The position numbers and the translations under genes were made by a program. Shown piece by piece: positions 14,370 through 26,450 of a DNA stretch of 39,739 bases. Position 1 is the stretch's first letter; every line of letters starts with the position of its first letter. This stretch comes from Cyanobium sp. NIES-981 (GTDB lineage: Bacteria; Cyanobacteriota; Cyanobacteriia; PCC-6307; Cyanobiaceae). The notes under the pieces were generated by a model. That model had not been told where the DNA came from and ran no database searches. It saw only the letters and a program-made list of their open reading frames with translations. The stretch is taken from positions 1-39,739 of the forward strand of contig CAMDLO010000001.1 in NCBI GenBank assembly GCA_945901765.1, given 5' to 3'.

Positions 14370-15800
14370 TCAGGCCAGTTTGCCGCTCAGGGAGAAGGCG
14401 CGCACCTCCTCGATCCGCACGTTCACATGATCCCCCGGCTGGATGGGCGTACCGTCGGGCCGCTCGCCAGGAAAAAACGTGAGCCGGTTGGTGCGGGTGC
14501 GCCCCATCACCTGGGCGGGGTCCCTGGGGTTGGTGCCCTCCACCAGCACCTGTTCCGTGCGGCCGGCGTAGCGGGCGCTGCGCTCCCTGGCGACCCGCTC
14601 CACCAGGGCGTTGAGCTCACGCAGGCGCTCCACCTTCACGTCCTCCGGCAACTGGTCCGGCCAGTCGGCGGCAGGGGTGTTGGGCCGGGGCGAGTAGGCG
14701 GCGGTGTTCACCTGGTCGAAGCCGATCTCCTCGATCAACGCCAGGGTGCGGCGGTACTGGGCGTCGGTTTCCCCCGGGAAGGCCACGATCACATCGGCGC
14801 TGATCGCCGCGTCGGGCATGCGCTCACGGATGCGATCCATGATGCGGCGGTAGCGGTCCACCGTGTAACCGCGGGCCATCGCCTTGAGCACGGCGTCGTC
14901 GCCGCTCTGGAAGGGGATGTGGAAGTGCTCACACAGCTTGGGCAGATCGGCGCAGGTATCGATCAGGCGCTCGGTGAAGTAGCGGGGGTGGCTGGTGGCG
15001 AAGCGGATCCGCTCGATGCCCGCCACGTCGTGGACGAACTGCAGCAGGTCGGTCAGGGTATGGGCACGGCGGCCCTCCGGGGTAATGCCGGGCAGGTCGC
15101 GGCCGTAGGCGTCGATGTTCTGGCCCAGCAGGGTGATTTCCTTGAACCCCTGCGCAGCGAGCCCCTCCATTTCGAGCTTGATGGCTTCGGGCAGACGGGA
15201 TTGCTCCTTGCCGCGCACCGAGGGCACCACGCAGTAGGTGCAGCGCTCATTGCAGCCGTAGATCACATTCACCCAGGCGCACACCTGGGAATCCCGGCGG
15301 GCGGTGGTGATGTCCTCAAGGATGTGGTGCTCCTCGGTGGCCACCACCTGCTGCCCCTGCTCCACCCTGGCCAGCAGCAGATCCAGGCGGTTGGCGTGCT
15401 GGGGGCCCATCACCAGATCCAGCTCGGGCACCCGCCGCAGCAGGGATTCGCCCTCCTGCTGGGCGACGCAGCCGGCCACCACCAGGGTGAGATGGGGGTT
15501 GGTGCGCTTGCGCTGGGCCTGGCGGCCCAGGTAGCTGTACACCTTCTGTTCGGCGTTATCGCGGATCGTGCAGGTGTTGTAGAGCACCAGATCAGCGCTG
15601 TGCTCGTCCTCGCCGGGTCGATAGCCCATGGCCTCCAGAATTCCGGCCATGCGCTCGGAATCCGCCTTGTTCATCTGGCAGCCGAAGGTGGTGATCCAGT
15701 AGCTGCCACGCCCGTTCTCCGCCCGAGGGGCGTTGGGAGCGGGGCTGGCCGTGCTGCAGGCCTGGGAAAGGGTCGCCGTCATCCCTTCAGTTTCGGCCAT
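14370..15800 (-). CDS. miaB: tRNA-2-methylthio-N6-dimethylallyladenosine synthase MiaB
   Basis: A radical SAM methylthiotransferase that acts on i6A37 of tRNAs reading UNN codons, including tRNA-Leu(CAA), whose gene is in this window. Domains in order are the N-terminal UPF0004 domain ([38 protein letters not shown], three Cys for one cluster), the radical SAM motif ([12 protein letters not shown], CxxxCxxC) and a C-terminal TRAM domain (from about QVLVEGTNP). The start is chosen at the ATG at 15800 ([11 protein letters not shown]); ATG 15782 is also possible. The frame continues further upstream, but that part would reach toward the divergent epimerase. It is the first gene of the ddl-ftsZ run. 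Confidence 0.95.
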
Positions 15801-15898
15801 GGCCAGACCCGGCTGTTGCCTGGCCAATGCCTGCTCCCTGGCCAGACGCTGACGCTGGCACGAAGCCATGCCAGTTTGAGTGCAGCGCCCCCGCTTCG

Positions 15899-17023
15899 AT
15901 GCGCCTGCGCCTGCGCCGCTTCCCGCTCACCAAGGCCGTGCCCCTGGCCATCAGCCGCGGCACCACCGGCGCTGTGGAGCATCTGCAGGTGAGCATCGAG
16001 CACGGCGGCGTCACAGGTCATGGCGAAACCGGCGGCTTCGACACCGGCCATCGCACCTACGCCACCGACGCCATCGCCGCCGAGCTGCAGGCCCTGGTCC
16101 CGCCGCTGGAGCCCCTGGCGCCGGAACCCCTCCAGGCCATCGAACCTCTGCTGGCCGAACTCAGCCCACCGGCGCGCTGCGGCCTGGATCTGGCGCTGCA
16201 CGACTGGTGGGGCCAGCGGTTAGGGGAGCCCCTGCATCGGCTCTGGGGGCTGGATCCGGGGGCCTGTGCCGCCACCAGCGTCACCCTCGGGCTGGGGGAG
16301 CCCGCGGCGGTGCTGGCGCGGCTCGAGCGCTGGTGGCAGCAGCTGCCCGCCACCCGCATCAAGCTCAAGCTCGGCAGTCCCGACGGCCTCGCCCACGACC
16401 TGGCCCTGCTGGAGGTGGTGGCCGCCGCCCTCGAGCAGCGCCGCCAGGCCACCGGCGCGGCCTGCGAGCTGCAGGTGGATGCCAACGGCGGCTGGGATCT
16501 CGATGCCGCCCAGGCGATGCTGGAGCCGCTGGCCCGCGCCGGGGTGGTGCTGCTGGAGCAGCCCCTGGCGCCCCAGGCCGATGCCGCCGCGGACACGGCC
16601 GGATTCGCCACCCTCCATCCCCACTGCCCCATCCCCTTGGTGGCTGACGAAAGCTGCTGGGATCTGGCCGATCTGCTGCGGCTCGCCCCCCACGTGGATG
16701 GCATCAACATCAAGCTGCTCAAGAGCGGCGGCCTCGGCGAGGCCCTGTTGATGGCGCGCACAGCCCGGCGCCTGGGGCTGGGGGTGATGCTGGGCTGCTA
16801 CTCCGATGGCGCCCTGCTCAACGGTGCCGCGGCCCAGCTGCTGCCGCTGGTGCGCTGGCCCGATCTCGACAGCCATCTCAATCTGATCGACGACCCCTTT
16901 GTGGGGCTGGAGCGGCGCGGCGACGTGGTGCAACCGCCGGCGGCGGCGGGGATCGGCGTGCGGCCAGGACCGGACTGGGCAGCTGAAACGCGTTCAACAG
17001 CGCTGGAGGTGAACGGATGCTGA
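15899..17023 (+). CDS. dgcA: Enolase-superfamily racemase/epimerase, DgcA-like (N-acetyl-D-glutamate racemase or L-Ala-D/L-Glu epimerase)
   Basis: A member of the mandelate racemase / muconate lactonising group, dipeptide epimerase branch. The catalytic Lys pair is visible: RIKLKLG (K155, K157) and [10 protein letters not shown] (K272). The Mg ligands are D194 (QVDANGGWD), E220 (LLEQPL) and D250 (VADES). Length (374) is normal. It overlaps the downstream DUF1611 gene by 7 bp. Alone it would be called an Ala-Glu epimerase. Coupled to a DUF1611 protein it matches the DgcA-DgcN pair, in which DgcN N-acetylates D-glutamate and DgcA racemises the product. Which activity applies cannot be settled from sequence. 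The start [13 protein letters not shown] at 15899 is the usual one for the family. Confidence 0.85.
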
Positions 17024-18069
17024 AACCCGAACACCGGGTGGTGCTGCTCCAGCACGGCGGTCTGGCCGACCTCTCCGGCAAGACCGGCCTCACCCTGCTG
17101 CGCTACCGGCGCGGGCCGGTGGTGGCGGTGGTGGATCCAACCCAGGCCGGCCGCAGCCTGCGGGCGGTGTGCGGCATCGAGCGGGACGTGCCGGTGGTGG
17201 GCTCGCTGGCCGAAGCTCTGGCCTACGGGCCCGAGGTGGCGGTGGTGGGGCTGGCCCCTTCCGGCGGCCGGCTGCCCGAGCCCGTACGTGCCGATCTGGC
17301 GGCGGCGCTGCGGGCAGGCCTGAGCGTGGCCAGCGGCCTGCACAGCCGCATCGGCGACGACCCCGAGCTGGCGCCCCTGCGCCGGGATCCCGCCTGGATC
17401 TGGGACCTGCGCCGCGAGCCTGAGGGGCTGGTGGTGGCGGCGGCGCGGGCGGCGGCCCTGCCCTGCCGGCGGCTGCTGGCGGTGGGCTCCGACATGGCCG
17501 TGGGCAAGATGAGCGCCTGTCTGGAGCTGGCGGCGGCAGCGGGGCGCCAGGGCCTCGCCGCCCGCTTCGTGGGCACGGGCCAGGCCGGCATCCTGATCAG
17601 CGGCCAGGGGGTGGCTCTCGATGCGGTGCGGGTGGATTACGCCGCCGGCGCCGTGGAGGCGGCGGTGCTGGCGGCTGGCGCCGATCTGGGAGCCGATGGC
17701 CTGCTGCTGGTGGAGGGCCAGGGATCGCTGGCCCATCCCGGCTCCACCGCCACCCTGCCCCTGATCCGCGGCAGCCAGCCCACCGCGCTGCTGCTGGTGC
17801 ACCGGGCCGGCCAACGGCACATCAAGGGACTGCCGGAGCTGCCGATCCCCCCCCTGCCCGAACTGATCACGGCGGTGGAGGCCGTGGCGGCCCTGGGCAG
17901 GCCCGATGGGCTGCGGCCGCGGGTCAAGGCGGTGGCACTGAACACCGGCCATCTGGACGAAACAGCCGCGAGCGCCGCCATCGCCGGCGTGGCCGCAGAC
18001 ACCGGCCTGCCCTGCACCGATGTGGTGCGGGGCGGGGCGGAGTCCCTGCTGGCAGCCCTGATTCCCTGA
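17017..18069 (+). CDS. dgcN: DUF1611 protein, DgcN-like (putative D-glutamate N-acetyltransferase)
   Basis: A DUF1611 family protein of 350 residues. The N-terminal Rossmann-like domain (residues 1-150) carries VVAVVDPTQAG and VVGLAPSGGRLP. The C-terminal P-loop-like domain has GSDMAVGKMSACLEL (from residue 157), then DGLLLVEGQGSLAHPG and GLRPRVKAVALNTGHLDE. DUF1611 proteins paired with a dipeptide-epimerase homologue are known as DgcN, an acetyl-CoA-dependent D-glutamate N-acetyltransferase. The transfer of that function here rests on the gene pair and has not been tested. The start overlaps the epimerase stop by 7 bp, so the two are translationally coupled. Confidence 0.85.
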   Translation: MLKPEHRVVLLQHGGLADLSGKTGLTLLRYRRGPVVAVVDPTQAGRSLRAVCGIERDVPVVGSLAEALAYGPEVAVVGLAPSGGRLPEPVRADLAAALRAGLSVASGLHSRIGDDPELAPLRRDPAWIWDLRREPEGLVVAAARAAALPCRRLLAVGSDMAVGKMSACLELAAAAGRQGLAARFVGTGQAGILISGQGVALDAVRVDYAAGAVEAAVLAAGADLGADGLLLVEGQGSLAHPGSTATLPLIRGSQPTALLLVHRAGQRHIKGLPELPIPPLPELITAVEAVAALGRPDGLRPRVKAVALNTGHLDETAASAAIAGVAADTGLPCTDVVRGGAESLLAALIP

Positions 18070-18174: not shown

Positions 18175-19383
18175 ATGGCGCCGCCCATGGACATAGCCAA
18201 GGCAGCAAGGACATCCAGCCCCCAGGAGGTGGTTGTTCTGGACTGGAAAACAGCCACAAAAACTGTGCTCAACGGCAGGGGCGCCTGGTTCAACGGAGGA
18301 CGGCCCACCCAGCTGGTGATTCAATCCACATTCAGCAAAGGGGAATGGAAACGCCCCCGAAACTTCACGTTCAAGAACTGGAAACTCAACGGTTCAATCC
18401 GGATTCTCGGTGTCGGCTCAAGCGCCTCCAATGCCGTCAAGCAATCGTCCTTCCGGCTGGGCCACAGCGAGCGACTGCAGGCAGCCGCCCCCACAGGCAT
18501 CACCCTCGCCAACCTGACGATCAAGGCCGAGGGGAAAATCCCCTTGATCGTTGGGCCAGGCGCAACCAAGGTGAGCCTGCGTGACTCAACGATCTCCGGC
18601 TACAGCCAGAGCGTGGCTGTCTATCTCGATGCTGAAAGCGCCGAAAATGCGATCGAAAACAACATCTTCACCATCAAAGCCGACCGCGAACTGATCGCCG
18701 TTGACGGCTCCAGCGGCAATCTGATCAGCGGCAACACTTTCACAACCCTCCCCTGGGGAGGCGTGTACGTGTACAGGAATTGTGGGGAACGCGGAGTCGT
18801 GCGCCATCAGAAACCAACCAACAACACCATCAGCGACAACATCTTCAACCTCAACAGCCTGAAAAGCTACTGGGAGAAAAACCCAAAAAACGGCCGCCAG
18901 CTCGAGTATCGATACGGAATCTGGCTCGGCTCAAGAGAAGGTTCACGAGCCCCGAATTACTGCAATGAAGACAAAGGCTACCCATTCGGCAGCAGCAAAT
19001 CCAATCGAGATTTTGCCAATGACAACATCATCAGCGGCAACCGCCGCATTGGATCAAGCAAGGGCTTCCTGCTCGAGATCAACGAGGACCTCGGAATCGG
19101 CGGTTACAACAAATTTATCAAAAATAATGGCAAAAACAATCAAATCAAGGCGAATCAGTCCCTGAACAGCAGCGATTTTGCCTCTGCCAACAAACGCCTG
19201 CCAGCACTGCAGCAAGCCCCAACCGACCCACCTCAGCTGACGCCCCGAGGCGCATCGATCACGGCGATCAATCCTGGCGCCTTGGCACCGAGCTGCGACT
19301 GCAGCCTGGGGGCCGGCAACGGCCTGATGATGCCAGGAAGAATGGTGCCTGGGCCCACGGGGGCAACGGAACCGCAGCTATAA
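18175..19383 (+). CDS. Right-handed parallel beta-helix protein, no signal peptide seen
   Basis: Asn-rich repeating strands such as NAIENNIFTIK, NLISGNTFTT, NTISDNIFNLN and NDNIISGN (residues about 158-290) are typical of a parallel beta-helix of the pectate-lyase or surface-protein kind. The N-terminal part (VVVLDWKTA, GRGAWFNGG) and the segment YRNCGERGVVRHQ look like a conserved family core. No signal peptide precedes it. The ATG at 18175 follows an in-frame region open back to the dgcN stop at 18069, also without an export signal. Base composition is visibly AT-richer than its neighbours (for example 19110-19150). No catalytic residues are identified. It may be a 5'-truncated copy of a secreted protein. 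Confidence 0.8.
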   Translation: MAPPMDIAKAARTSSPQEVVVLDWKTATKTVLNGRGAWFNGGRPTQLVIQSTFSKGEWKRPRNFTFKNWKLNGSIRILGVGSSASNAVKQSSFRLGHSERLQAAAPTGITLANLTIKAEGKIPLIVGPGATKVSLRDSTISGYSQSVAVYLDAESAENAIENNIFTIKADRELIAVDGSSGNLISGNTFTTLPWGGVYVYRNCGERGVVRHQKPTNNTISDNIFNLNSLKSYWEKNPKNGRQLEYRYGIWLGSREGSRAPNYCNEDKGYPFGSSKSNRDFANDNIISGNRRIGSSKGFLLEINEDLGIGGYNKFIKNNGKNNQIKANQSLNSSDFASANKRLPALQQAPTDPPQLTPRGASITAINPGALAPSCDCSLGAGNGLMMPGRMVPGPTGATEPQL

Positions 19384-19539: not shown

Positions 19540-19974
19540 GTGGCCGCCGCATTCCAGCCCAGATCAGGCGGCACCGCCCTACGCGTCCTGCTGGCAGCCG
19601 GGCTGATGGGAACGGCGCTGATGTTCAGCAATCCCGGACCCGCTGAATTCGAGGGCTTCGCCGCCGAGCGGCTGGTGGACGTGCTGGAAACGGAGCTGTG
19701 CCGGGGAGACGCACTGCCGGGACTGGTGCGCATGGCGCTCGGCGACTGTGCCCGTCTGGTGCAGGACCAACGCCTGCCGATCGCCCGCCTGGTGGGGCGC
19801 CACAGCCGTCGGATCGATCTCGGGGTGGCCAGCCTCTATCGCAGTGAATTCGGCGGCGGCACGCTCCTGGGTTGGCCGGTGCCCCGCTTCCGGGCCACGG
19901 TGCTGGCGATGGCCGGCCACTTCCTGATACTTCAGGCCGGCAGCAACCCATCTGAGGTCAGGAGGCAGCCTTGA
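19540..19974 (+). CDS. DUF4359-like exported protein (about 144 aa)
   Basis: A short protein with an N-terminal hydrophobic segment (LRVLLAAGLMGTALMF), then NPGPAEFEGFAAERLVDVLETELC, a mid segment with CARLVQDQR and a C-terminal SLYRSEFGGG...PRFRATVLAMAGHFLILQA. This resembles the cyanobacterial DUF4359 group of small anchored or exported proteins of unknown role. The start was set at GTG 19540 because the earlier in-frame ATG (19483) lies inside tRNA-His. Two internal ATGs in the hydrophobic segment are less likely. It ends in TTGA, overlapping the start of the amidohydrolase by 4 bp. Confidence 0.65.
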   Translation: MAAAFQPRSGGTALRVLLAAGLMGTALMFSNPGPAEFEGFAAERLVDVLETELCRGDALPGLVRMALGDCARLVQDQRLPIARLVGRHSRRIDLGVASLYRSEFGGGTLLGWPVPRFRATVLAMAGHFLILQAGSNPSEVRRQP

Positions 19975-21248
19975 ACACGCCGGCGCCACTGCAGCTGAAG
20001 CTGCCCCGCTGCCTGCTCGATCCAGGCCTGAGCGGCCTGCCGGTGGATGCGGACGGGCTGGTGGCGCTGGCGGTGGAGCACCGGGACGGGCGGATCACGG
20101 ATCTCAGACCTCTGCCTGAGACGGACATCCCCCTGCCCCTGGCCCTCACCCCCCTGGTGGAGCCCCATGCTCACCTCGACAAGTGCTTCAGCTGGGCCGA
20201 CTTCCCCAACCCCGGCGGCACCATCGCTGGGGCTCTCAGCCAGAACCTGCGCGAGGCGGAGCAGCGGCATGGCGAGCTGGTGCTGGCGCGCGGTGAAGCT
20301 GCTCTGGAGAGGGCCTGGCGCCATGGGCTCCGCGCTGTCCGCAGCCACATCGACAGCGGCGGAGCCGGGGCCCGTTCGAGCTGGGACGCACTGCTGGAGC
20401 TGCGGAGCCGCTGGGCCGGCCGGGTTGAACTCCAGCTGGTGGCTCTGGTGCCGATCGGCTATTGGGCCACGCCCGCCGGCGCGGAACTGGCCCGTTGGGT
20501 GGCCGCGGCCGGGGGGCTGCTGGGCGGGGTGCTCGGCCCCCCCTACGGCCATGGCCGCCGCGACCGCCAGGCCCTGGCCCGTCTGCTGGATCTGGCGGAA
20601 GCGCTGGGCACGGGGATCGATCTGCACAACGACGAGGCCGACCGGGAGCCGGCCCGGGGCATGCGCCTGCTGCTGAACGTGCTGCGCCAACGCCGGACCT
20701 CGCCGCCGATCACCTGCAGCCATGCCGCCAGCCTCGGCCTGCTCAACCGCAGCCAGCTGGCGCCACTGGCTGAGGCCCTGGCCGCCGCCGGGATTGCGGT
20801 GGTGGCCCTGCCGCTCACCAACCTGTGGCTGCTGGGCCGGCGCACGGGCCAGCAGCCACTGCTGCGGCCCCAGGCTCCCATCCACAGCCTGCAGCGCGCG
20901 GGCGTGACGGTGGCGGTGGGTGGCGACAACGTGCAGGACCCCTGGTACCCCGGCGGCGATTTCGACCCGCTCGAGCTGCTGCGGCTGGCGCCGCTCACCA
21001 GTCACCTCTGGCCGGCCCAGCGCCGCGACCTGGCGGCCTTCACCACAGCGCCGGCTCGCCTGCTGGCTCTGAGCTGGGACGGGGTGCTGAGGCGGGGGGC
21101 CCCGGCCGATCTGGTGCTCACCGGCGCCGGCAACTGGAGCGACCTGCTCGCCCGCAACCCCCAGCGGCGGGTGCTGCGCAACGGCCGCTGGCTGCCGATG
21201 CCCGACGGGGGGCCTGCTGCGGCGCTGCTGAACGCCAGCATGGGGTGA
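19971..21248 (+). CDS. Cytosine-deaminase-type amidohydrolase
   Basis: A metal-dependent amidohydrolase (425 aa) with the active-site order of the cytosine deaminase / CodA branch: H66 and H68 in EPHAHLDKCF, the RSHIDSG segment, H219 and E222 in DLHNDE, H251 in CSHAAS, and D319 in GGDNVQDPWYPGG. The last motif is very close to that of CodA, so deamination or hydrolysis of a cyclic amidine or amide is likely. The real substrate is unknown. The start is TTG at 19971 with a strong AGGAGG 5 nt upstream, overlapping the previous stop (TTGA). It overlaps the next gene by GTGA. Confidence 0.88.
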   Translation: MNTPAPLQLKLPRCLLDPGLSGLPVDADGLVALAVEHRDGRITDLRPLPETDIPLPLALTPLVEPHAHLDKCFSWADFPNPGGTIAGALSQNLREAEQRHGELVLARGEAALERAWRHGLRAVRSHIDSGGAGARSSWDALLELRSRWAGRVELQLVALVPIGYWATPAGAELARWVAAAGGLLGGVLGPPYGHGRRDRQALARLLDLAEALGTGIDLHNDEADREPARGMRLLLNVLRQRRTSPPITCSHAASLGLLNRSQLAPLAEALAAAGIAVVALPLTNLWLLGRRTGQQPLLRPQAPIHSLQRAGVTVAVGGDNVQDPWYPGGDFDPLELLRLAPLTSHLWPAQRRDLAAFTTAPARLLALSWDGVLRRGAPADLVLTGAGNWSDLLARNPQRRVLRNGRWLPMPDGGPAAALLNASMG

Positions 21249-22645
21249 CCCGCCCCTTCCCCGTCTTGGCCGACCTCCCCCCCAGGCCCGCGCAGCCATG
21301 CATCGACCGATTGGCGGCGGAGCTGCGCCAGCGTGATCCAGACCTGGTGCTGGTGGGCGAAGACCAGCCCTCCGAGTTGGGGCGCCTCTCCCGGGACTAC
21401 CACTCCTATTCGCCGGTGCTGGTGCCGCGGTTCGCTGGCCAGCGGGCCCAGCTGGCGGTGTGCGCCAGGCGCCTCGATCAGGTGCAGCTGGTGGCGGGGG
21501 CCTGCGCCCGCGCCGCCGTGCCCCTCACCCTGCGGGGAGCCGGCACTGGCAACTACGGGCAGTGCGTGCCCCTCGCCGGCGGCGTGGTGCTCGACCTGAG
21601 CGGCCTGAACCGGTTGCGCTGCCTTGAGGCGGCGAGCGGTGTGATCGAAGTGGAGGCTGGAGCCCTGATGGCGGCGGTGGAACGGGAGCTGGCTCCCCAT
21701 GGCCGCGCCCTGCGCCTGGCGCCCAGCACCCTGCGCACCGCCAGCATCGGCGGATTCATCGCCGGTGGGTCCGGCGGCATCGGCTCCCCGCGCTGGGGCT
21801 TTCTGCGGGATCCCGGCAATCTGCTGGGCCTGGAGGTGGTGACGGTGGAACCCGAGCCGCGGCTGCTGCGGCTGGATGCGGTCGCCAGCGCACCCCTCAA
21901 CCATGCCTATGGCTGCAATGGCATCCTCACCGCCCTGCGCCTGCCCACCAGCGAAGCGGTCGACTGGCAGCAGCTGGTGGTGGGCTTCAACCACTGGACC
22001 GAGGCGGTGGCAGCGATGACGGGGCTGGGAAGCACCGCCCTGCTGCTGCAGGCCCTGTGTCTGCTGGAGACTCCGATTGCAGCCCGATCCCCATGGCCGG
22101 CGGGCTGTCCAGCCGCTGGCGGCGAGCACCGGCTGCTGCTGCTTGCAGCGCCAGACTGCCTGGAGGTGCTGCCGGACTGGCTCGCGGCCCGTGGCGGCCG
22201 GGTGATCTGGCAGGCGCCGCAGAGCGGCAGCCAGGGGCTGCCGCTCAGGGAGCTCACCTGGAACCACACCACCCTTCACTGGCGCGCCCACTCCCCCGAC
22301 TGGACATACCTGCAGCTGCTGCTGCCCCAGCCCGAGCTGCCGGTGCTGAGCAGCCTGAGCCAGCGGTGGAAGGGCGATCTGCTCTGGCATCTGGAGGCCG
22401 TGCGCCAGCAGGGCAGCGCCCGGCTGGCAGCCCTGCCGCTGCTGCGCTGGCAGGGGGAGGACGCTCTGCAACGGCTGATCGACCAGCTGCGCGAGAGCGG
22501 AGCCCAGATTTTCAACCCCCATGTGATCACGGTCGAAGATGGCGGGATGGGGGTGGTGGACGCCGATCAGGTGACCGCCAAGGCCGCCTACGACCCCGCC
22601 GGGCTATTGAATCCCGGCAAGCTGCGGGGCTGGCTGGAGCGCTGA
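21245..22645 (+). CDS. GlcD-type FAD-binding oxidase/dehydrogenase
   Basis: A flavoprotein of the VAO/GlcD family (466 aa). The FAD-binding domain shows LTLRGAGTGNYGQCVPL, GVVLDLSGLNRL, an ASIGGFIAGGSGGIGSPRWG block and YGCNGILTALRLP. The C-terminus ends in NPGKLRGW, as in GlcD and related D-2-hydroxy-acid dehydrogenases. The substrate is unknown. The start is GTG 21245, which overlaps the amidohydrolase stop as GTGA, so translation is coupled. The earlier open frame (from 20825) lies inside the amidohydrolase gene and was rejected. Fixed pairing with a deaminase suggests the oxidase acts on the same or the next metabolite. Confidence 0.85.
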   Translation: MTRPFPVLADLPPRPAQPCIDRLAAELRQRDPDLVLVGEDQPSELGRLSRDYHSYSPVLVPRFAGQRAQLAVCARRLDQVQLVAGACARAAVPLTLRGAGTGNYGQCVPLAGGVVLDLSGLNRLRCLEAASGVIEVEAGALMAAVERELAPHGRALRLAPSTLRTASIGGFIAGGSGGIGSPRWGFLRDPGNLLGLEVVTVEPEPRLLRLDAVASAPLNHAYGCNGILTALRLPTSEAVDWQQLVVGFNHWTEAVAAMTGLGSTALLLQALCLLETPIAARSPWPAGCPAAGGEHRLLLLAAPDCLEVLPDWLAARGGRVIWQAPQSGSQGLPLRELTWNHTTLHWRAHSPDWTYLQLLLPQPELPVLSSLSQRWKGDLLWHLEAVRQQGSARLAALPLLRWQGEDALQRLIDQLRESGAQIFNPHVITVEDGGMGVVDADQVTAKAAYDPAGLLNPGKLRGWLER

Positions 22646-25148: not shown

Positions 25149-26336
25149 TCAGACGAGGCTGAGCAGCGCCTGCTCCAACCGCTCCAGGGCCAGCGCCAGC
25201 TCGCGGGGGCGGATCGTCAGAGGAGGAACCAGGCGCACCACCGTCGGCCCTGCCGGCACCACCAGCAACCCTTGCGATAAAGCAGCCTTGACGACGGCGG
25301 GAGCGGAGGGCGCACCGTCGCGCAGCACCAGACCCTGAAGGAGGCCCCAGCCGCGATGGCCTTCCAGCAGCTGGGGGTGCCGGCACACCAGATCGGCCAG
25401 CCCCTGCTCCAGCCGGTCGCCGAGCCGCTGCACATGGGCCAGCAGGCCGCGTCGCTCGATCTCGGCCAGCACAGTGAGCCCGGCCCGGCAGGCGAAAGGA
25501 TTGCCTCCAAAGGTGCTGGCGTGATCGCCGGGGCAGAAATGATCGAACTGTCGTTTCACCGCCAGTGCCCCGATCGGGATGCCGCCGCCCAGCCCCTTGG
25601 CCAGGGTGAAGGCATCCGGTTCCACGCCCAGCCGCTCGTAGCCCCACCAGGCGCCGCTGCGACCCACCCCGATCTGCACCTCATCAAAAATCAGCAGGAT
25701 CCCCCGCTCATCGCAGCACTGGCGAACCCGGTGGAAAAAGGCCTGATCGCCGGGATGCACCCCGCCCTCCCCCTGCAGGGGCTCGAGCAGCACCGCCGCC
25801 ACCCGCGGACCCTGCGCTTCGCAGCGGGCCAGCAGGGCCTCAAAAGCGGCAGCATCGTTGTAAGGGAAATAGCGGAAGCCCTGCACCATCGGCTCGAAGC
25901 CCCGGTGGTATTTCGGCTGACCGGTGGCGGTCACGGCCGCCAGGGTGCGGCCGTGGAAGCTGGCCTCAGCCGTGAGAATCAGGGGGGCGGCGTCACCGCT
26001 GATGCCCCGCACCTGATGGCCGTGCTTGCGGGCCAGCTTGATGGCCGCCTCGTTGGCCTCGGCCCCGGAATTGCAGAAGAACACCCGGTCGAAGCAACTG
26101 CGGGCAGTGATCGCCGCGGCCAGTTGCTGCTGTTCCGGAATCACGTACAGGTTGGAAACGTGCTGGAGCCGGGCGAGCTGGCGGCTGAGGGCTCGACGCA
26201 GTCGGCGATCGCTGTGCCCAAGGGTGCAGACCGCAATGCCGGCGACACAGTCGAGATACCGCCTGCCCTGGCTGTCCCAGAGCCAGACGCCCTGCCCCCG
26301 CACCAGCTCGAGCGGGAATCGGGCATAGGTGTCCAT
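25149..26336 (-). CDS. argD: Acetylornithine aminotransferase ArgD
   Basis: A PLP-dependent class III aminotransferase of arginine (and lysine/DAP) synthesis. Motifs are VAGIAVCTLGH, NSGAEANEAAIKLARK (GAEA at 91-94, binding PLP phosphate), IFDEVQIGVGRSG (D218 to the pyridine N) and TLAKGLGGGIP (Schiff-base Lys247). The start MDTYARFPLELVRG (ATG 26336) gives 395 residues. The longer open frame upstream is translated tRNA-Leu sequence and is not part of the protein. The gene begins 32 nt after the tRNA 3' end, so its mRNA may be released by tRNA processing. Confidence 0.95.
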   Translation of the reverse strand: MDTYARFPLELVRGQGVWLWDSQGRRYLDCVAGIAVCTLGHSDRRLRRALSRQLARLQHVSNLYVIPEQQQLAAAITARSCFDRVFFCNSGAEANEAAIKLARKHGHQVRGISGDAAPLILTAEASFHGRTLAAVTATGQPKYHRGFEPMVQGFRYFPYNDAAAFEALLARCEAQGPRVAAVLLEPLQGEGGVHPGDQAFFHRVRQCCDERGILLIFDEVQIGVGRSGAWWGYERLGVEPDAFTLAKGLGGGIPIGALAVKRQFDHFCPGDHASTFGGNPFACRAGLTVLAEIERRGLLAHVQRLGDRLEQGLADLVCRHPQLLEGHRGWGLLQGLVLRDGAPSAPAVVKAALSQGLLVVPAGPTVVRLVPPLTIRPRELALALERLEQALLSLV

Positions 26337-26368
26337 CACCGGATTGACCGGTTCTGGCTCAGAGGAGA

Positions 26369-26450
26369 TGGGAGCGGTGGGACTCGAACCCACATGCCCG
26401 AAGGCGCTCGATTTTGAGTCGAGTCCGTCTACCAATTCCGGCACGCTCCC
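26369..26450 (-). tRNA. tRNA-Leu (CAA)
   Basis: The acceptor GGGAGCG pairs with CGCTCCC, A73 is present and CCA is not encoded. The anticodon stem CTCGA/TCGAG encloses loop CTCAAAA with anticodon CAA (reads UUG). A long class II variable arm (CGCCTTCGGGCATG) and T arm GTGGG-TTCGAGT-CCCAC fit tRNA-Leu. The A37 and A36 context makes it a MiaA/MiaB substrate. Its 5' end is only 12 bp after the murA stop codon, and argD follows on the same strand. Confidence 0.96.

Follow-up and report, generated by a model that had tools for sequence, protein, structure and literature searches.

The window, a stretch of 39,739 nucleotides from Cyanobium sp. NIES-981, carries two overlapping genes on the plus strand at 15899-18069. 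The first (15899..17023, 374 aa, with the stop codon ending at 17023) encodes an enzyme of the enolase (MR/MLE) superfamily which resembles dipeptide epimerases and DgcA. The second (17017..18069, 350 aa) encodes a DUF1611 protein, a DgcN-like N-acetyltransferase candidate. Both open reading frames are present and share the 7 bp at 17017..17023, as the original prediction had it. The epimerase frame has an earlier in-frame ATG at 15827, 24 codons upstream of 15899; the conserved start is 15899, where M1 is kept in at least 98% of 127 distinct cyanobacterial relatives. Pfam domains score above the gathering score in both proteins: MR_MLE_N/C (PF02746/PF13378; 31.1 and 91.5 bits) in the epimerase, and DUF1611_N/DUF1611_C (PF07755/PF17396; 218.5 and 87.6 bits) in its partner, which consists of a Rossmann-like N domain and a P-loop C domain. 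The AlphaFold model of the epimerase is confident (pLDDT 89) and has strands alternating with helices.

The catalytic frameworks are intact. All six catalytic residues attributed to the epimerase beforehand (K155/K157, D194, E220, D250 and K272) were found in place, and they are invariant among 127 distinct cyanobacterial sequences. The acid/base lysines K155/K157 belong to a KLKLG motif (16361..16375, plus strand, as are all motifs given here), and the capping loop carries an ISRG motif with R20 (15950..15961), which is common to YcjG and DgcA. Further along, GCYSD (residues 299-303; 16793..16807) is a cyanobacterial pocket signature which replaces the GCM-type motifs. In DLDSHLNL (residues 322-329; 16862..16885) the D-x-D is retained and is followed by a cyanobacterial SH. 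The DUF1611 protein contains the P-loop GSDMAVGKM (157-165; 17485..17511), TGQAG (187-191; 17575..17589), the TGQ of which is invariant in DgcN and its relatives, and EGQGS (233-237; 17713..17727). The P-loop, TGQ and EGQGS motifs show little or no variation among 131 sequences.

The pair is oriented divergently to miaB, ddl, ftsQ and ftsZ, which are encoded on the minus strand; ddl was identified by reading its sequence. The predicted distance of 98 bp to this cluster (15801..15898) holds if miaB starts at 15800, and the gap is the presumed promoter region of the pair. In picocyanobacteria, miaB adjoins the pair at 71 of 80 loci, and several of the exceptions are short contigs; miaB/ddl do so in only one of 16 other cyanobacterial loci. 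Because this adjacency is picocyanobacterial and rare elsewhere, the cell-wall neighbourhood reflects inherited gene order and has little functional meaning. A wall function had been read from it; as lineage-restricted synteny, the neighbourhood was dropped as functional evidence. argD (25149-26444, minus strand) is 7.1 kb from the pair, in agreement with the 7 kb given before. The link to arginine synthesis that had been based on it is not supported, since argD is unlinked and the argument was one of distance alone. Just 3' of the pair is a gene for a right-handed beta-helix protein (18175-19383, plus strand, 402 aa, marginal Pfam support). Further on are a cytosine-deaminase-like amidohydrolase (19971-21248, plus strand, 425 aa; 268 bits, below the equivalog cut-off) and, after it, an FAD-binding oxidase frame (20825-22645).

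The epimerase gene is immediately upstream of the DUF1611 gene in about 80 picocyanobacterial loci, some copies being cut by contig ends. The two overlap in 65 of 80 loci, most commonly by 7 bp, and such overlap is what translational coupling would lead one to expect. In family f38, from another class of the phylum, the order is reversed: in L179 (6275-8403), L180 (6618-8746) and L181 (6542-8664) the DUF1611 gene precedes the epimerase gene, with an overlap of about 10 bp. The genes upstream of the pair in L179 (nadC/nadB/nadA-like genes and a GGDEF-HD gene) were considered as operon partners and judged unrelated. Across 23 loci from the whole phylum, the epimerase and DUF1611 are the only families present throughout, and no third conserved module gene was found. 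The next gene clusters beside the pair in these loci were rejected as module members, being antisense shadow frames or lineage-specific synteny. The conserved neighbours of the 23 loci include neither a peptidase nor a DgcR-like LysR gene.

The two genes are also inherited together. In an even set of 292 genomes of the phylum, DUF1611 is found in 83 and the epimerase in 82. The prediction that the pair co-occurs is borne out: 81 genomes have both genes, two DUF1611 only, one the epimerase only and 208 neither. The corresponding Fisher p of ~7e-69 is uncorrected for shared ancestry and is to be taken merely as 'far from chance'. Both DUF1611-only genomes are accounted for: G236 has a diverged epimerase immediately downstream of DUF1611, and the sole DUF1611 of G211 is of a divergent second type. 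The epimerase occurs alone in a single genome, G053, whose contamination is 9%. Among cyanobacteria the pair occurs widely, and the DUF1611 search was positive in S. elongatus; the exception is the small Prochlorococcus-like genomes (1.6-1.9 Mb), which have neither gene. In G266 (L182, 6784-7335), residues 1-128 of the epimerase continue in the same reading frame into the last part of DUF1611, a joint remnant which indicates that a single deletion took out both genes. As they are kept and lost together across cyanobacteria, the epimerase and DUF1611 very probably do one job together, and we place high confidence in their functional coupling. It could be argued that they are two housekeeping genes whose adjacency is coincidental, as the entire miaB-ddl-fts neighbourhood is syntenic in picocyanobacteria. 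However, the pair persists where that neighbourhood is gone and occurs in reversed order in another class; its genes also co-occur when unlinked or on separate contigs (six genomes) and disappear jointly. Stable synteny of genes that share no function is thus largely refuted, and we regard it as highly improbable.

The nearest characterised relatives of the pair are the enzymes of the DgcN-DgcA D-glutamate pathway, which was reportedly described in Pseudoalteromonas sp. CF6-2 by Yu et al. (ISME J, 2023). The best NCBIfam model for the epimerase is that of DgcA (NF042940, N-acetyl-D-Glu racemase), with 156.5 bits against an equivalog cut-off of 400; for DUF1611 it is that of DgcN (NF041892, N-acetyltransferase), with 218 bits against a cut-off of 480. 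Models for Ala-Glu epimerases likewise remain below their cut-offs (PRK15129, 111 bits against 343; NF041118, 55 bits against 500). In the epimerase tree, the cyanobacterial enzymes form their own clade (100/100), apart from a clade of DgcA and E. coli YcjG. A clade of DgcA-named enzymes that leaves out YcjG is rejected (p-AU 0.004), and one that joins the cyanobacterial enzymes to the DgcA/YcjG clade is borderline and not firmly rejected (p-AU 0.053). In the DUF1611 tree, DgcN is set apart on a long branch (100/100) from the cyanobacterial, haloarchaeal, Thermotoga and f38 proteins. On the strength of these scores, clades and tree tests, the cyanobacterial pair appears not to be orthologous to dgcN-dgcA, nor its epimerase to be of the standard Ala-Glu type. 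The pair would rather be a separate, old assembly of the two building blocks of dgcN-dgcA, or a very early branch. DgcN-DgcA is a good working model for the pair, although the two proteins do not appear to belong to those families. The description of the pair as DgcA-DgcN-like is thus upheld for its coupling and its best models; membership is not supported, in view of the sub-cut-off scores, the separate clades and a different pocket signature.

The original prediction looked to pocket residues to separate DgcA from YcjG/YkfB, and these were not decisive. By alignment, R20 and the D-x-D motif (D322/D324) are common to the window epimerase, DgcA and YcjG. In B. subtilis YkfB, D321/D323 hold the ammonium group of the dipeptide and R24 the glutamate side chain; R24 aligns one column off R20. 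As characterised DgcA also keeps the D-x-D, the motif cannot separate DgcA from Ala-Glu epimerase activity. Assignment by pocket residues was tried and fails, the capping-loop Arg and the D-x-D being common to all three; and since YcjG sits inside the DgcA clade, the choice is not decidable from sequence. The epimerase could be read as an L-Ala-D/L-Glu epimerase of muropeptide recycling, with DUF1611 acting later or on another recycling product. Among solved structures, dipeptide epimerases (3iji, 1jpd and 3jva) come closest to it, and the genome encodes one NlpC/P60 protein and an S66 peptidase. The intact D-x-D, which in YkfB binds the dipeptide ammonium, also fits this reading, but it is equally a feature of characterised DgcA. 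The lack of a peptidase among the conserved neighbours argues against recycling, as does the fact that the epimerase and DUF1611 are almost never found apart in the 292 genomes. The recycling epimerases of E. coli and B. subtilis are not known to depend on DUF1611. A role in muropeptide recycling is accordingly considered quite unlikely.

DUF1611 also occurs in cyanobacteria beside a racemase of another kind. The divergent second type is present as an extra copy in six genomes and as the only DUF1611 in G211. It adjoins, and sometimes overlaps, the gene for an Orr-like PLP racemase in all seven genomes examined (G239, G274, G175, G235, G070, G105 and G211). The racemase was assigned by homology in all seven; the NCBIfam scores of the six that were searched are 289-405 bits, below the curated 480. 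These second modules are found at L188 3480-5695, L189 4687-6503, L190 8254-10001, L191 3636-5913, L192 3527-5731, L193 4885-7091 and L194 3986-6213. In G175 the second DUF1611 lay within an apparent open frame of 24,637 codons, which was discarded as an artefact of masked N bases. The annotation of Vibrio europaeus also pairs DUF1611 with an Orr-type PLP racemase. Since DUF1611 is found beside both enolase-type and PLP-type racemases, it is repeatedly a racemase partner in cyanobacteria. PLP racemases require a free amino group, so the order of steps would differ in the PLP pairs. Two plasmid loci contain related genes in other arrangements. On a Sphingobium plasmid (L137 953-6792), a serine hydrolase, a dipeptide epimerase, a TonB receptor and DUF1611 are perhaps a D-peptide uptake cluster. 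On a Streptomyces plasmid (L141 1-5075), a dipeptide epimerase is found with ATP-grasp, DUF364, cysteine-synthase-like and MFS genes, and the cluster probably encodes a small metabolite pathway.

It is most likely that the joint job of the epimerase and DUF1611 is the conversion of a D-amino acid, such as wall-derived D-glutamate, to the L form. We infer that DUF1611 acts first, as an acetyltransferase: with acetyl-CoA as the donor, it would acetylate a D-amino acid at its amino group. The most likely candidate is D-glutamate, which would come from peptidoglycan, either that of the cell itself or foreign. The epimerase would then invert the alpha-carbon of the N-acetyl compound by means of the K157/K272 acid/base pair, assisted by Mg2+ bound by D194, E220 and D250. 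This would yield N-acetyl-L-glutamate, from which deacetylation could give L-Glu, or which could enter arginine synthesis. The evidence for this sequence of events includes the near-perfect co-occurrence, the overlap in 65 of 80 loci, the joint remnant in G266 and the lack of any other conserved neighbour. DgcA and DgcN as best models, the motifs shared with DgcN and the PLP racemase beside seven of seven DUF1611 paralogues point in the same direction.

The genome (2.46 Mb, 129 contigs) is compatible with such a route. It has a glutamate racemase (murI), N-acetylglutamate kinase (argB) and M20 hydrolases, among which there could be a deacetylase. Its ArgJ gene is partial; the gene is complete in close relatives. 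The relatives retrieved are Cyanobium, Synechococcus and Vulcanococcus. The metabolic genes named lend support to the route, and every step of the proposed salvage could exist in the genome; it should be noted that the gene set is not specific to salvage. Against the proposal are scores far below the DgcN/DgcA cut-offs, a pocket unlike that of any compared DgcA, the reversed gene order, and murI, which could in principle already remove D-Glu. A search of the literature for an assay or mutant phenotype of the pair found none. On balance, an acylate-then-racemise pathway of some kind is likely. That D-Glu is its substrate has about an even chance, and the full scheme of acetylation of a D-amino acid (most likely D-Glu) followed by racemisation is favoured by a narrow balance. 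It is doubtful that the pair feeds arginine synthesis. The earlier proposal that wall D-Glu is salvaged into arginine was a reasonable lead, overstated with respect to substrate and neighbourhood.

In the pocket of the cyanobacterial epimerases, strand 7 ends with GCYSD, in place of the GCM or GSM of the compared Ala-Glu epimerases and DgcA; strand 8 is followed by DLDSH, in place of their DLDG, DLDA or DFDA. Among 127 cyanobacterial sequences, Y301, S325 and H326 never vary, and S302 and D303 are at least 97% conserved. Being conserved and unlike the compared enzymes, these residues suggest a single, distinct substrate for the cyanobacterial epimerases. The same two steps might have a substrate other than D-Glu, with another D-amino acid, or a dipeptide peculiar to cyanobacteria, as the compound that is N-acylated. 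The breadth of the DUF1611 family is consistent with this, as is the pairing of its divergent cyanobacterial paralogues with an ornithine-racemase-like enzyme. However, the D-Glu enzyme is still the nearest profile for both proteins, and the R20 and D-x-D of Glu enzymes are kept; a substrate other than D-Glu thus seems rather unlikely. A wider proposal is offered tentatively: cyanobacteria may own a widespread acylate-then-racemise pathway that separated anciently and has a pocket differing from those of DgcA and the Ala-Glu epimerases, perhaps for a different D-amino acid or wall fragment. DUF1611 would in that case be a partner of racemases in general, brought together with those of the enolase type and of the PLP type on separate occasions. 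DUF1611 is still named as of 'unknown function' in Pfam, and its recurrent pairing with two unrelated racemase types is a concrete handle on the function of the whole family. If D-Glu salvage is true, it would be a route by which a phototroph reclaims nitrogen and carbon from wall-derived D-amino acids.

Among known systems, the DgcN-DgcA D-glutamate pathway of Pseudoalteromonas sp. CF6-2 is treated in passages of PMC12363236 and PMC10845958. The characterised CF6-2 locus (NZ_CP091443) has the order dgcR-dgcN-dgcA. Like the cyanobacterial pair, it closely joins the gene of a DUF1611 protein to that of an enolase-superfamily racemase in a two-gene unit. DgcA shares the catalytic Lys/Asp/Glu set and the ISRG and D-x-D motifs; by alignment, DgcN shares the P-loop GxDxxxGK, TGQ and EGQGS. 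Identity is only 25% for the racemase and 32% for DUF1611, which fall in separate clades, and the N-terminal part of DUF1611 and the epimerase pocket signature differ. The cyanobacterial order, epimerase then DUF1611, is the reverse of dgcN then dgcA; the proteobacterial order is matched by L179-L181. The Ala-Glu epimerases YcjG (E. coli, 1jpd), YkfB (B. subtilis, 1jpm/1tkk) and Bacteroides 3iji share the fold family, catalytic residues and D-x-D. YkfB and YcjG are 27-31% identical to the window epimerase. Ala-Glu epimerases carry GCM/GSM and DLDG/DFDA in place of GCYSD and DLDSH, and the cyanobacterial enzyme differs from all three in its near-obligate DUF1611 partner. The solved Anabaena DUF1611 protein (2obn), for which a search found no functional data attached to the structure, is of the same cyanobacterial type, with 55% identity over its whole length. 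Lastly, the DUF1611 and Orr-type pairs (the Vibrio europaeus plasmid and the cyanobacterial second copies) resemble the present pair in that DUF1611 adjoins an amino-acid racemase; they differ in that this racemase is unrelated, PLP-dependent and acts on free amino acids, and in that their DUF1611 is divergent (28-36% identity).
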